A DNA stretch of 64,000 nucleotides, taken from Aquimarina spinulae (lineage in GTDB: Bacteria > Bacteroidota > Bacteroidia > Flavobacteriales > Flavobacteriaceae). The DNA lies in the NCBI RefSeq assembly GCF_943373825.1, contig NZ_CALSBP010000001.1:62001-126000 (forward strand), in the 5' to 3' direction. The notes under the pieces are model-generated. The model saw nothing but the letters and a program-made list of their open reading frames with translations. It made no database searches and was not told where the DNA came from. How positions within the stretch are numbered: the first letter of the stretch is position 1; each line of letters opens with the position of its first letter. Positions 2,071 to 4,795 of the stretch are shown piece by piece. The translations under genes were made by a program, and so were the position numbers.

Positions 2071-2727
2071 AAAAAAGCTTCCTTATTGATAACGAAATTA
2101 AACTTATTTAGTTACAATTAATATAATTGAATGTTTCTTTTTTGTAACGTTTAGCAACGGGTAGTCTTTTAAGTGTTCAAACTGGCAATTTGATATAATT
2201 CTTTGCAATGTGATATTTACGAAGTTCGTTACTTAAAACTATATTTTATTTTGAAGGATTTAGAGTTACTTTTTTTAATTTATTTTCTAGTTTTTTTATG
2301 TTTTGATAGCTTAGTCTTTGTGAAATTTATAGCGGTCAAAATTTATAAATTCATACCTCGTTTTTAATGGTGTATAGCTAATATCCTTGTATTTCTACTA
2401 GCCTTTATACTATATTTGATTCGGTTATTAATACTTGTTTTATGTATTGGAATCACTGTCAGGAAAAAGAAAAGTAAAGGCTTCAATTAGAACAATAATA
2501 TATCTGTTGTGTGAAGAAATACTTTCAATTTTATTCCATAAATATCAGTAAATGGGCAATCATATCTAAAAAGAGGATGACCTATCAGGTTTGATTTTCT
2601 TTATCAAAGATCTTGATGAAAAAAACACATCAGTCGATGACTCCTAAAAAAGAAATGTAAGTAGTATCATAAATAAACAAAGCTCTAAAATGAGCTTTGA
2701 ATATAAAAACATTCTCTCGCGAGGAAT
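2071..2727. other. Intergenic stretch, no gene seen
   Basis: About 650 very AT-rich bases between lnt and the first peptide gene. No ORF with coding character was found. A perfect 8-bp hairpin (CAAAGCTC/GAGCTTTG, 2678-2685 with 2692-2699, 6-base loop) lies 28 bases before the peptide leader hairpin. It has no T-run, so it is probably not a simple terminator. Confidence 0.5.
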
Positions 2728-2748
2728 AGACACACATGGTGAGTGTCT
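2728..2748 (+). promoter_or_regulatory. Leader hairpin of GG-leader peptide gene, copy 1
   Basis: AGACAC at 2728-2733 pairs with GTGTCT at 2743-2748 around a 9-base loop. The ATG follows after 41 bases. The same element precedes the other three intact peptide genes at 40-41 bases. It could be an RNA hairpin near the mRNA 5' end or a DNA operator. Confidence 0.6.
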
Positions 2749-2789
2749 TAAAATGTTCATCACAATTGTAAATATTGAATATTTAAATT

Positions 2790-2978
2790 ATGAAAAAATC
2801 AATTTTAAACATAGGAAGAGCTTTAAGTAAAGAAGCGCAAAGAACAATTAATGGAGGAGGTCCGAATGATATAGAAAGTATATATGGCCCTCATGAATGT
2901 TCAATGTGTACTGATGGACACCGTTGTTATTATGATGTAGATGGTAATGGATATTGCACAGCTGAGACGGATGATTAA
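2790..2978 (+). CDS. GG-leader four-Cys secreted peptide precursor, copy 1
   Basis: A 62-residue precursor. Residues 1-23 form a leader (MKKSILNIGRALSKEA.. ending NGG) of the double-glycine type that C39-peptidase ABC transporters cleave. The remaining roughly 39-residue core is acidic and has four Cys spaced C-2-C-5-C-9-C. The leader closely matches the three genes that follow, while the core does not. No C39 transporter or modification enzyme is in the window, so export must be encoded elsewhere. It may be a bacteriocin, signal peptide or other secreted peptide; function is unknown. Confidence 0.75.
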   Translation: MKKSILNIGRALSKEAQRTINGGGPNDIESIYGPHECSMCTDGHRCYYDVDGNGYCTAETDD

Positions 2979-3371
2979 CTAATCCCTGGATCTTAAAATA
3001 TTTTTATTTGATGATGAAATACTACCGTTTTTGAAGGTGGTAATGTTCAAAAAGCTCAGTCATTTTTTAAGAACTTAATAAAATTTCTTTAAGTACATGA
3101 TAAAAAAAGTTATAGATTAATATAAATTATTGATTTCCAATAAAATATGTAGTTTTTGTTGCTTTTTGTTACCCTAGTTCTTCGATCTAGCTCAGGATAA
3201 ACTAAAGGCTAGAATCCATCTTGATATAATGTTATTAATAGTGGATTTACTCTTTTTTATTTCGGGTTTGGAAGAAAATAATTGAGGTCACTATTATTTC
3301 ATTCTATATATGAAAATATAAAGTGTTTTTTAAAGCTTTTGTATTATAAAAATATTCTTTTGGTAAAGAAT

Positions 3372-3392
3372 AGATACAAATTGTAAGTGTCT
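3372..3392 (+). promoter_or_regulatory. Leader hairpin, copy 2 (G-U variant)
   Basis: AGATAC at 3372-3377 faces GTGTCT at 3387-3392 with a 9-base loop. The single change from AGACAC turns a C-G pair into a U-G wobble, which keeps the stem in RNA but would break a strict DNA palindrome. The ATG follows after 41 bases. A TATTCTTTTG stretch at 3353-3362 resembles a degenerate Bacteroidota -7 element and would place the mRNA start close to this hairpin. Confidence 0.55.
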
Positions 3393-3433
3393 TAAAACAG
3401 TTGTCGTAAAAAATAATATTTAAAACTTATGTC

Positions 3434-3598
3434 ATGAAAAAATCAATTTTAAACTTAGGGAAAACTTTAAGTAAAGCAGAACAAAAATCAATTAATGGAG
3501 GTATTGCCCCGTATTTATGTACTCTAGGAGACCCTTGTTATCTTTTTATGGGACCAATATGTACAGATGTATGTATGCATGATCCTGGAGGGAGGTAG
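3434..3598 (+). CDS. GG-leader four-Cys secreted peptide precursor, copy 2
   Basis: A 54-residue precursor. Leader residues 1-23 run from MKKSILNLGKTLSKAEQ to NGG, followed by a 31-residue core with four Cys spaced C-5-C-7-C-3-C. It is the best match to the consensus leader of the group. It lies between its own leader hairpin and a strong terminator at 3684, so it is probably monocistronic. The core shares no evident sequence with the other copies beyond the Cys count. Confidence 0.75.
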   Translation: MKKSILNLGKTLSKAEQKSINGGIAPYLCTLGDPCYLFMGPICTDVCMHDPGGR

Positions 3599-3683
3599 AA
3601 TGTGAAATTAATTCTACATATATGTCTGCAAGTAAACAATCATTGTTTTAAAGTTTATATTACTGTAGGATATTGATAACTTG

Positions 3684-3722
3684 GCTGAGTTGCTTTTTAC
3701 GAAAAAGGGACTCAGCTTTTTT
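3684..3722 (+). terminator. Intrinsic terminator after peptide copy 2
   Basis: GCTGAGT (3684-3690) pairs with ACTCAGC (3710-3716), with an inner CTTTTT/AAAAAG stem, followed by six T. Confidence 0.8.
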
Positions 3723-4026
3723 AAAAACGTACTAAAGTTTTTCTAAGTACCTGATAAAAAGTTATACGTAAATATAAATTACTTTTTTTCAATAAGATAT
3801 ATTATATTAGTTGTGTTTTATTACCCTAACCCCTCAACCTAACTTTGGATAAACTGAGGACTAGAATCCATTTTGATATATAGTGTTATTAATAGTGGGT
3901 TTACTCTTTTTTATTACGGATTTGGAAGAAAACAATTGATTGTTTCATTCAAAATATGAAAGTATAAAATGCTTTTTATGGCTTTTATGTTATTTGTATT
4001 AGCAATAATATTCTTTTATAAAGGAT

Positions 4027-4047
4027 AGACACAAACGATGAGTGTCT
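4027..4047 (+). promoter_or_regulatory. Leader hairpin, copy 3
   Basis: AGACAC (4027-4032) and GTGTCT (4042-4047) flank a 9-base loop, 40 bases before the ATG at 4088. The loop and the following TTAAAATG sequence match copy 4 almost exactly. Confidence 0.6.
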
Positions 4048-4087
4048 TAAAATGGTTGTCGTAAAAAATAATCTTAAAACCTATATC

Positions 4088-4264
4088 ATGAAAAATCACA
4101 TTTTAAACTTGGGTAAAGTTTTAACCAAAACGCAACAAAAACAAATTAATGGAGGCAGGTGTCAAAATGCATTTCAATGTTGGGAATGGGCTAATTTTTT
4201 TGGACCAGAAGATGCGTATGCATGTATTGATGGGAATTGCGGACTTAATCCAGGTCCACTTTAA
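4088..4264 (+). CDS. GG-leader four-Cys secreted peptide precursor, copy 3
   Basis: A 58-residue precursor. The frame is open back to 4052, but ATG 4088 is preferred because it aligns with the start of the other leaders and keeps the hairpin untranslated. Leader residues 1-23 (MKNHILNLGKVLTKTQQ..NGG) precede a 35-residue core with four Cys spaced C-5-C-14-C-4-C. The leader is nearly identical to copy 4, so these two split most recently. Confidence 0.75.
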   Translation: MKNHILNLGKVLTKTQQKQINGGRCQNAFQCWEWANFFGPEDAYACIDGNCGLNPGPL

Positions 4265-4273
4265 TTGCTGGGA

Positions 4274-4378
4274 GTGTGAAAAATCAAATTTAAACTTAAG
4301 AAAAGTTTAGATAAAGTAGAACAAAAAATAATTAATACAGAAAATCTTATATCCGGTGAATGCGATCTCCAAAAATAG
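4274..4378 (+). pseudogene. Decayed GG-leader peptide gene
   Basis: The 35-codon stretch still reads like the leader (KKSLDKVEQKIIN) in one frame. A TGA sits where codon 2 would be, no ATG remains, and the double Gly has become Thr-Glu. The core is reduced to about 11 residues with one Cys. The upstream leader hairpin is also missing. This is a dead fifth copy between copies 3 and 4. Confidence 0.6.
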
Positions 4379-4433
4379 AATAGTACAATTCTATATGTAA
4401 AGTTCTATGTCAAAATAGGATATACTTGATAAT

Positions 4434-4454
4434 AGACACAAACGATGAGTGTCT
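4434..4454 (+). promoter_or_regulatory. Leader hairpin, copy 4, with -7-like element
   Basis: AGACAC (4434-4439) and GTGTCT (4449-4454) lie 40 bases before ATG 4495. TATACTTG at 4421-4428 differs by one base from the Bacteroidota -7 consensus TAnnTTTG and ends 5 bases before the hairpin, which would put the hairpin at the very 5' end of the mRNA. No clear -33 element was seen. Confidence 0.6.
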
Positions 4455-4494
4455 TAAAATGTTTGTCGTAAAAAATAATCTTAAAACTTATATT

Positions 4495-4656
4495 ATGAAA
4501 AATCACATTTTGAACTTGGGTACAGTTTTAACCAAAACTCAACAAAAGCAAATTAGTGGAGGAAGACCAGTTAATTGTTACCATCATGCAATTTGTCCAC
4601 CAATCGATGAACCAGATTCGTGTATAATTTATGGTAATGTATGTCATGTACTGTAG
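4495..4656 (+). CDS. GG-leader four-Cys secreted peptide precursor, copy 4
   Basis: A 53-residue precursor. ATG 4495 is chosen over the longer open frame from 4426 because it matches the other leaders. Leader residues 1-23 end SGG instead of NGG; the 30-residue core has four Cys spaced C-5-C-8-C-6-C and two adjacent His. A strong hairpin terminator follows. Role unknown, as for its paralogues. Confidence 0.75.
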   Translation: MKNHILNLGTVLTKTQQKQISGGRPVNCYHHAICPPIDEPDSCIIYGNVCHVL

Positions 4657-4688
4657 GTAAATGATTCCAAATTTCCAATTTACTATAG

Positions 4689-4717
4689 AATTCCCCGGGG
4701 TAGAGCCTCGGGGAATT
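4689..4717 (+). terminator. Strong hairpin after peptide copy 4
   Basis: A 12-bp stem (AATTCCCCGGGG with CCTCGGGGAATT, one G-U pair) around a 5-base loop. It is the most GC-rich structure nearby. There is no long T-run after it, so it may act as a terminator or an RNA stability element. Confidence 0.65.
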
Positions 4718-4795
4718 ACTCTTGAGAGGTAAAAAGCATATTTTTAAGTGTTCATTAGAGAAAATAGTTTACTATTTTTACACAAAATCGACTTC

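Follow-up and report, generated by a model that had tools for sequence, protein, structure and literature searches.

A predicted pseudoknot upstream of dispersed Gly-Gly leader peptide genes in Aquimarina

What connects four adjacent small genes whose products start with nearly the same leader and continue into cores that share little beyond their cysteines? The question is raised by an array of precursor genes in a 64,000-nucleotide (nt) stretch of an Aquimarina genome (hereafter the window, G000:C1:62001-126000; the genome comprises 6.24 Mb in three contigs and is 100% complete). The comparisons presented here indicate that these four genes are part of a dispersed family of predicted exported, disulfide-bonded mini-proteins with Gly-Gly (GG) leaders. 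About 60 nt 5' of every ATG in the array lies a 35-nt element which shows the covariation of an H-type pseudoknot, the fold itself being predicted. An earlier, sequence-only reading of the window had described the precursors but noticed neither the pseudoknot that precedes each gene nor the spread of the family over the genome.

The array and its relatives in the genome

The open reading frames (ORFs) and their translations agree with the initial description: four intact tandem genes encode precursors of 53-62 amino acids (aa) with near-identical 23-residue leaders ending in GG, and each core contains four Cys at the spacings given in Table 1. The four leaders have 12 invariant positions, the terminal GG included. 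The leader-region DNA is repeated among the array genes (64-93% identity), and a profile of the four leaders, which these match by construction, also matches an unrelated locus, C2:1124696, at E 4.6e-13; because of the repeats and this match, the array family cannot be attributed to chance. As in the GG-leader class, the leaders end in GG (or GA/GS) and have conserved hydrophobic positions, and a C39 exporter is encoded in the genome.

Searched against the genome, the four-leader profile gives 39 matches at E<=10, among them by construction those of the array; a broader profile, built from 16 leaders of this genome only, gives 49 at E<=0.01. After merging, at least 44 distinct leader-bearing precursors are scattered over the genome (leader score >14, length of at least 45, merged if the first 30 residues were identical; not counted were truncated copies at locus ends, a leader-only frame of 19 residues and two Cys-free candidates with low scores, 6.7 and 7.9 bits). 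Their leaders contain no Cys, and the core Cys counts are mostly even: four in 20 precursors, six in 17, two in three, seven in two, and eight and five in one each. The count is even in 41/44 cores, where this Cys frequency alone would give 22.0 (standard deviation, sd, 3.4; binomial p 8e-10), and in 65 of the 69 distinct precursors from loci of other Aquimarina genomes (score >20, 45-110 residues, merged by residues 21-45). This parity favours a disulfide constraint on the cores.

The array is flanked by a gene with apolipoprotein N-acyltransferase domains and by one with a CDP-alcohol phosphatidyltransferase domain, and a strong, terminator-like palindrome with a T-rich tail on the minus strand is found just before it (window positions 2678-2699). 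No peptide exporter or modification enzyme was detected among the ten flanking ORFs scanned, which bears out the proposal that the array lacks a linked one; the three C39 exporter genes of the genome are all on other contigs. One C39 locus includes a LANC_like gene, another a split lantibiotic dehydratase and the third (G000:C2:404873) an HlyD partner; this third exporter had no precursor beside it in a pattern scan. A large regulator (568-584 aa) combining TPR-like repeats with a helix-turn-helix of the AraC type is encoded within 10 kb of every C39 locus (Table 1).

The predicted pseudoknot and its distribution

The element was recognized through a palindrome, AGACAY-N9-RTGTCT, which was traced from the intergenic repeats of the array and is also found in front of other GG genes of the genome. 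Its loop has a 3' part that is complementary to the sequence 9-14 nt past the palindrome, and pairing of the two would form a second helix, P2, next to the palindromic stem, P1. The resulting arrangement (P1 of 6 bp, loop L1 of 3 nt, P2 of 6 bp, no L2 and an A-rich L3 of about 8 nt) is the geometry of a classical H-type pseudoknot.

Fifty distinct 43-nt elements were collected by the palindrome and a short AT-rich flank, with P2 not used for the choice; one regular-expression match judged unrelated (locus L046) and one on the minus strand of the window were left out. In this set, P1 is 97.3% paired and P2 is 90.7% paired, compared with at most 51.7% for P2 in slid registers. Changes on both sides occur at 6/6 P2 pairs, one pair shows all six standard pair types, and the P2 covariation score of 0.684 exceeds that of shuffled sets (0.279, sd 0.024), with 0/500 shuffles reaching it. 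Outside the genus, 66 elements in 73 leader-selected loci have P2 85.4% paired, and fully paired in 43/66, against a shuffle mean of 23.8 and a maximum of 32 (1000 shuffles); this set excludes same-genus loci together with L208 (Aquimarina aggregata), and retains, like another count made outside the genus, regular-expression matches preceding no GG gene; that other count also includes L208 and an unrelated match in L187. Hardly any variation is seen in P1 and the A-rich loop, in contrast to the free variation of the P2 sequence, so that P1 and L3 may be the parts that are recognized and P2 the part that holds the fold.

H-type pseudoknots are found among cis-regulatory RNAs such as the preQ1-I and SAM-II riboswitches and translational operators. 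The element resembles these in its interleaved helices, short L1, A-rich L3, small size and closeness to the start codon, but it precedes genes for export peptides rather than metabolic genes and has no credible match in Rfam 15 in the stretches tested (E<=10 for window positions 2500-4760 and for part of L037, E<=1 for 12 loci). A small RNA model of Rfam hit the minus strand over elements 3 and 4 at chance level (E 2.7 and 6.3). Separately, a DUF805b RNA (RF02914) was matched at the gathering score at L037:515-552, about 1 kb from a pseudoknot-bearing gene. No earlier description of the element was found in the literature searched (PMC2864571, PMC9723704 and PMC10734526 included), a scope with most subscription papers, a list of 64 structured 5' regions and one of 224 candidate RNAs outside it. 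The 64 structured 5' regions are reported in a flavobacterial transcriptome study (PMC9723704).

A covariance model, R1, with P2 entered as pairs and 20 of the 26 own-genome sites in its alignment, detects these 26 sites at E<=10 and 23 of them at E<=0.01. By assignment of the downstream GG genes by eye, 22 sites precede an intact GG gene, one an apparently decayed GG gene and three a lipoprotein gene; six sites were new to R1, four of them in front of GG genes and two in front of lipoprotein genes. The 22 GG genes comprise 19 of the 44 precursors and three with another leader type. Among 37 Aquimarina genomes, 30 contain R1 matches and 31 the leader. In a sample of the family, the RNA was detected in 27/299 genomes (24/236 genera), the leader in 30 and both in 24 (Fisher p 1e-26), and in a class-wide sample R1 matches were confined to 4/395 genomes, all of the same family. 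We inspected 36 sites outside the genus in 28 RNA-chosen loci, a part of the about 81 sites that the family sample lists there: 32 precede a GG-type ORF (three with a changed second Gly and two of only 33-34 aa), one a lipoprotein gene, and for three no ORF was found in range.

The lipoprotein genes with a pseudoknot are L127 (G000:C3:98463), L137 (C2:622448), L147 (C2:2504299, with the pseudoknot at E 0.21 only) and L201 from another genus. An apparent remnant of a GG leader start stands in front of L137, and L127 and L147 are near GG genes. Two of the three own-genome lipoproteins are related to each other (27% identity, E 3e-9), and Pfam searches with three of the four proteins (only a 130-residue part of one) yielded no match above the cut-off. 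These lipoproteins may be candidate immunity or surface proteins.

Table 1. Features of the array (window positions) and regulators at the C39 loci (locus positions). E values are those of the covariance model whose own alignment includes all four pseudoknots.
Feature	Position	Strand	Remarks
Palindromic stretch directly 5' of pseudoknot 1	2711..2727	+	CGCGA-bearing version in 77/174 distinct upstream stretches
RNA pseudoknot 1 (predicted)	2728..2762	+	P1 2728-2733/2743-2748, P2 2737-2742/2757-2762, L1 3 nt, L3 8 nt; E 2.9e-6
Precursor 1 gene	2790..2978	+	62 aa; leader 2790-2858; core Cys spacing 2-5-9
RNA pseudoknot 2 (predicted)	3372..3406	+	Weakest of the four, 5/6 P2 pairs in fixed columns; E 0.002
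Precursor 2 gene	3434..3598	+	54 aa; leader 3434-3502; core Cys spacing 5-7-3
RNA pseudoknot 3 (predicted)	4027..4061	+	E 1.2e-6
Precursor 3 gene	4088..4264	+	58 aa; leader 4088-4156; core Cys spacing 5-14-4
Decayed fifth precursor copy	about 4279..4378	+	Frame interrupted; between genes 3 and 4
RNA pseudoknot 4 (predicted)	4434..4468	+	E 4.2e-7
Precursor 4 gene	4495..4656	+	53 aa; leader 4495-4563; core Cys spacing 5-8-6
AraC/TPR-like regulators at C39 loci	L024:5422-7176, L025:2110-3816, L026:613-2358		

Variety of the cores

The sequence-only reading had attributed the variety of the cores to diversifying selection. Pooled over orthologs and calculated from pairwise sums with kinship ignored, the ratio of nonsynonymous to synonymous polymorphism (pN/pS) of the core is 0.17 for gene 2 (6 sequences), 0.13 for gene 3 (6 full-length sequences, one copy cut by a locus end being skipped) and 0.08 for gene 4 (4 sequences). 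Gene 1 differs from the single ortholog seen by one synonymous change and zero amino-acid changes. The leader of gene 4, at 0.54, is above its own core, and the EELGWN core of another array gene is at 0.39. Orthologous cores are under purifying selection, the very outcome that the earlier reading had named as contradicting its proposal. Of the secreted, constrained family that it envisaged, the secretion, predicted from the GG leaders and from C39 exporters that are present although unlinked, and a disulfide constraint remain supported.

The differences among genomes lie in which genes the array contains. In G001, a genome of the same species whose stretch was read, genes 1 and 2 are followed by a different third core, and genes 3 and 4 are absent; other mixes of genes are found in the arrays of G002, G004, G020, G027 and G030. 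Throughout the arrays of relatives, leaders and RNA elements are kept and genes are exchanged. Judged from these sequence comparisons, core variety arises from gene birth, gene death and whole-core replacement, not from diversifying substitution.

The cores are unrelated to each other within the array, as had been claimed, but the claim fails beyond it for core 3, which has relatives with the same Cys, 34-39% identical, in two other Aquimarina genomes and a Tenacibaculum. A protein search with precursor 3 returned 5 proteins, and its two named relatives are annotated 'hypothetical protein'. The AlphaFold2 model of core 3 (7-sequence alignment; predicted local distance difference test, pLDDT, 90) consists of a helix and a beta-hairpin. 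Structure searches gave no significant match for the core model, which is not evidence of a new fold, and core alignments A7 and A8, searched against the sequences of solved structures, had no match at E<=1.

Among described peptide families, the bacteriocin-like NF047798 leader_Chryseo and the cerein 7B family TIGR03949 have the same general short GG leader pattern and weakly match precursors 2 and 3, without reaching the cut-offs (best 16.1 of 23.5 and 14.8 of 21.5); the array cores differ in being Cys-rich. The putative bacteriocin NF047792 CCPGW weakly matches residues 11-47 of paralog L021 (E 9.5e-5; 22.3 bits compared with a cut-off of 80). Conotoxins and plant NCR peptides form superfamilies with a conserved leader, highly varied Cys-rich cores and recurrent frameworks. 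The array family resembles them in the conserved leader and varied Cys-rich cores, with no homology demonstrated, and differs in being bacterial, in GG/C39 export instead of a signal peptide, and in the common 5' RNA.

Export, control and competing explanations

We consider it probable that the precursors are dispersed, exported disulfide mini-proteins under pseudoknot control that leave the cell through a C39 exporter. The element, assuming that it is transcribed, would lie in the mRNA leader just 5' of the ribosome-binding region, where the pseudoknot would adjust the translation or stability of these mRNAs jointly. One trans-acting factor would read the conserved P1 stem and A-rich loop, with the variable P2 clamping the fold. 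Cleavage at GG would remove the leader, the C39 ABC exporter/HlyD pair encoded elsewhere (G000:C2:404873) would carry the core out of the cell, disulfides would form outside the cytoplasm, and competition with other bacteria would be the most likely use of the peptides.

Exporters related to G000:C2:404873 are encoded beside RNA elements and GG genes in G011 (74% identity) and G015 (65%). VKOR-domain proteins of 511-536 aa are encoded near C39 exporters and GG genes (L318:181-1791 in G015 and L025:14889-16424), and that of G015 also matches thioredoxin and, just under the cut-off, a C39-like domain. These VKOR proteins may be candidate disulfide-forming partners.

An at least 83% identical ortholog of G000:C2:404873 is present in 29/37 Aquimarina genomes, all leader-positive, and 6/37 lack both leader and such an ortholog (co-occurrence p 1.2e-5), figures that are weakened by the 83% line having been drawn after the data were seen, by phylogeny, which confounds the profile, and by G021, a leader-negative genome that is only 55% complete. 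Further observations count against the explanation that we favour. Leader-positive G003 and G013, with one match each, have only 71-72% identical exporter relatives, and leader-negative G005 and G007 carry 67-74% identical relatives or fragments. Only 19/44 leader-bearing precursors have an R1 match, one of them (C1:483107) at E 8.6, and G022 has three leader matches and zero RNA matches; some of the 25 precursors without a detectable element may be downstream genes of small clusters and others may be under other control. Within the element, the outermost P2 pair fails in 12/50 cases, and the P2 double-change pairs and further pair types are matched by 5/500 and 65/500 shuffles, respectively. 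The Bacteroidetes-type promoter TAnnTTTG is not enriched upstream (9/190 compared with 9.9 in shuffles), and a sigma-70 scan, with 21 sites compared with 17.4 in shuffles, has its three best matches (10/12 positions) on elements 1, 3 and 4, which would fit a promoter instead.

Sequence cannot tell a bacteriocin from a signal, and GG peptides serve as pheromones in Gram-positives. The peptides could likewise be secreted signals or modulators of the producer's own behaviour, in line with the AraC-type/TPR-like regulators near every C39 locus; we regard this as unlikely, since dozens of different cores per genome and the turnover of genes would suit an arsenal better than a code.

It is quite improbable that the peptides are lanthipeptides or other thioether-bearing or modified RiPPs (ribosomally synthesized and post-translationally modified peptides), processed in trans by LanB/LanC of the genome. 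The lantibiotic dehydratase and LANC_like genes with C39 exporters, the presence of two LANC_like genes in the genome, and the class I lanthipeptide-type leaders of some RNA-bearing peptides (L142, with NF038153 at the cut-off) would all fit such processing. However, the LANC_like genes are only on contigs C2 and C3, not on that of the array (no genome-wide LanB search was made), the ten scanned flanking ORFs contain no modification enzyme, and no window precursor matches a lanthipeptide model at E<=1. The sequence-only reading had allowed for either disulfide or thioether constraint; the strong even-Cys parity and the VKOR/thioredoxin protein adjoining the related cluster in G015 speak for the former and leave the latter with a low probability.

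Targets among eukaryotes, such as algae or grazers, appear improbable to the same degree. Six-Cys spacings like those of knottins occur in several paralogous cores, and some show a weak likeness to animal Cys-rich peptides, but no match to a known Cys-rich family reaches its curated cut-off, save a partial WAP match (L008, 25.4 bits compared with 20.8), no fold match is significant, and shared Cys spacing explains the likeness, which we read as probably reflecting convergent frameworks.

A second palindrome, bearing CGCGA, is located directly 5' of P1 in 77/174 distinct upstream stretches. Its five pairs are paired at 0.862 in these 77 (0.832 in shuffles, maximum 0.847) and at 0.659 in all 174 (0.566, maximum 0.601); in stretches without CGCGA the value, 0.497, is within the shuffles (maximum 0.507). 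Sequence conservation dominates here, and the palindrome may be a third helix, an operator, an extra hairpin or part of a promoter. That the element as a whole is a DNA site, either a palindromic operator or part of a promoter, with incidental P2 pairing, would fit this second palindrome, the near-perfect, sequence-conserved palindrome of P1 and the sigma-70 matches, but is very improbable given that P2 is not part of the palindrome and that its covariation involves many pair types, that G-U pairs occur in both helices, that P2 keeps an almost constant distance from P1 and from the ATG, and that Bacteroidetes promoters follow a consensus other than sigma-70.

Returning to the pseudoknot as an RNA regulator, we tentatively propose, with rather less confidence than in the explanation as a whole, that it could be an undescribed, family-wide post-transcriptional switch of the GG arsenal of Flavobacteriaceae. 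It would respond to one factor or ligand whatever the leader type and extend to a few lipoproteins, perhaps for immunity, so that one signal acting on the mRNAs would tune dozens of weapons encoded at unlinked sites. As far as a non-exhaustive search shows, no other RNA element of this kind is known to serve an arsenal of exported peptides. Should its ligand be a small molecule, the pseudoknot would rank with the smallest riboswitch-like elements. The common RNA element provides a handle on short, varied peptides that have no biosynthetic neighbours and are probably missed by gene-cluster tools, flagging their genes even when the leader is of another type, and raises the question of what a bacterium senses in order to adjust, through RNA, dozens of secreted peptides whose genes are unlinked.

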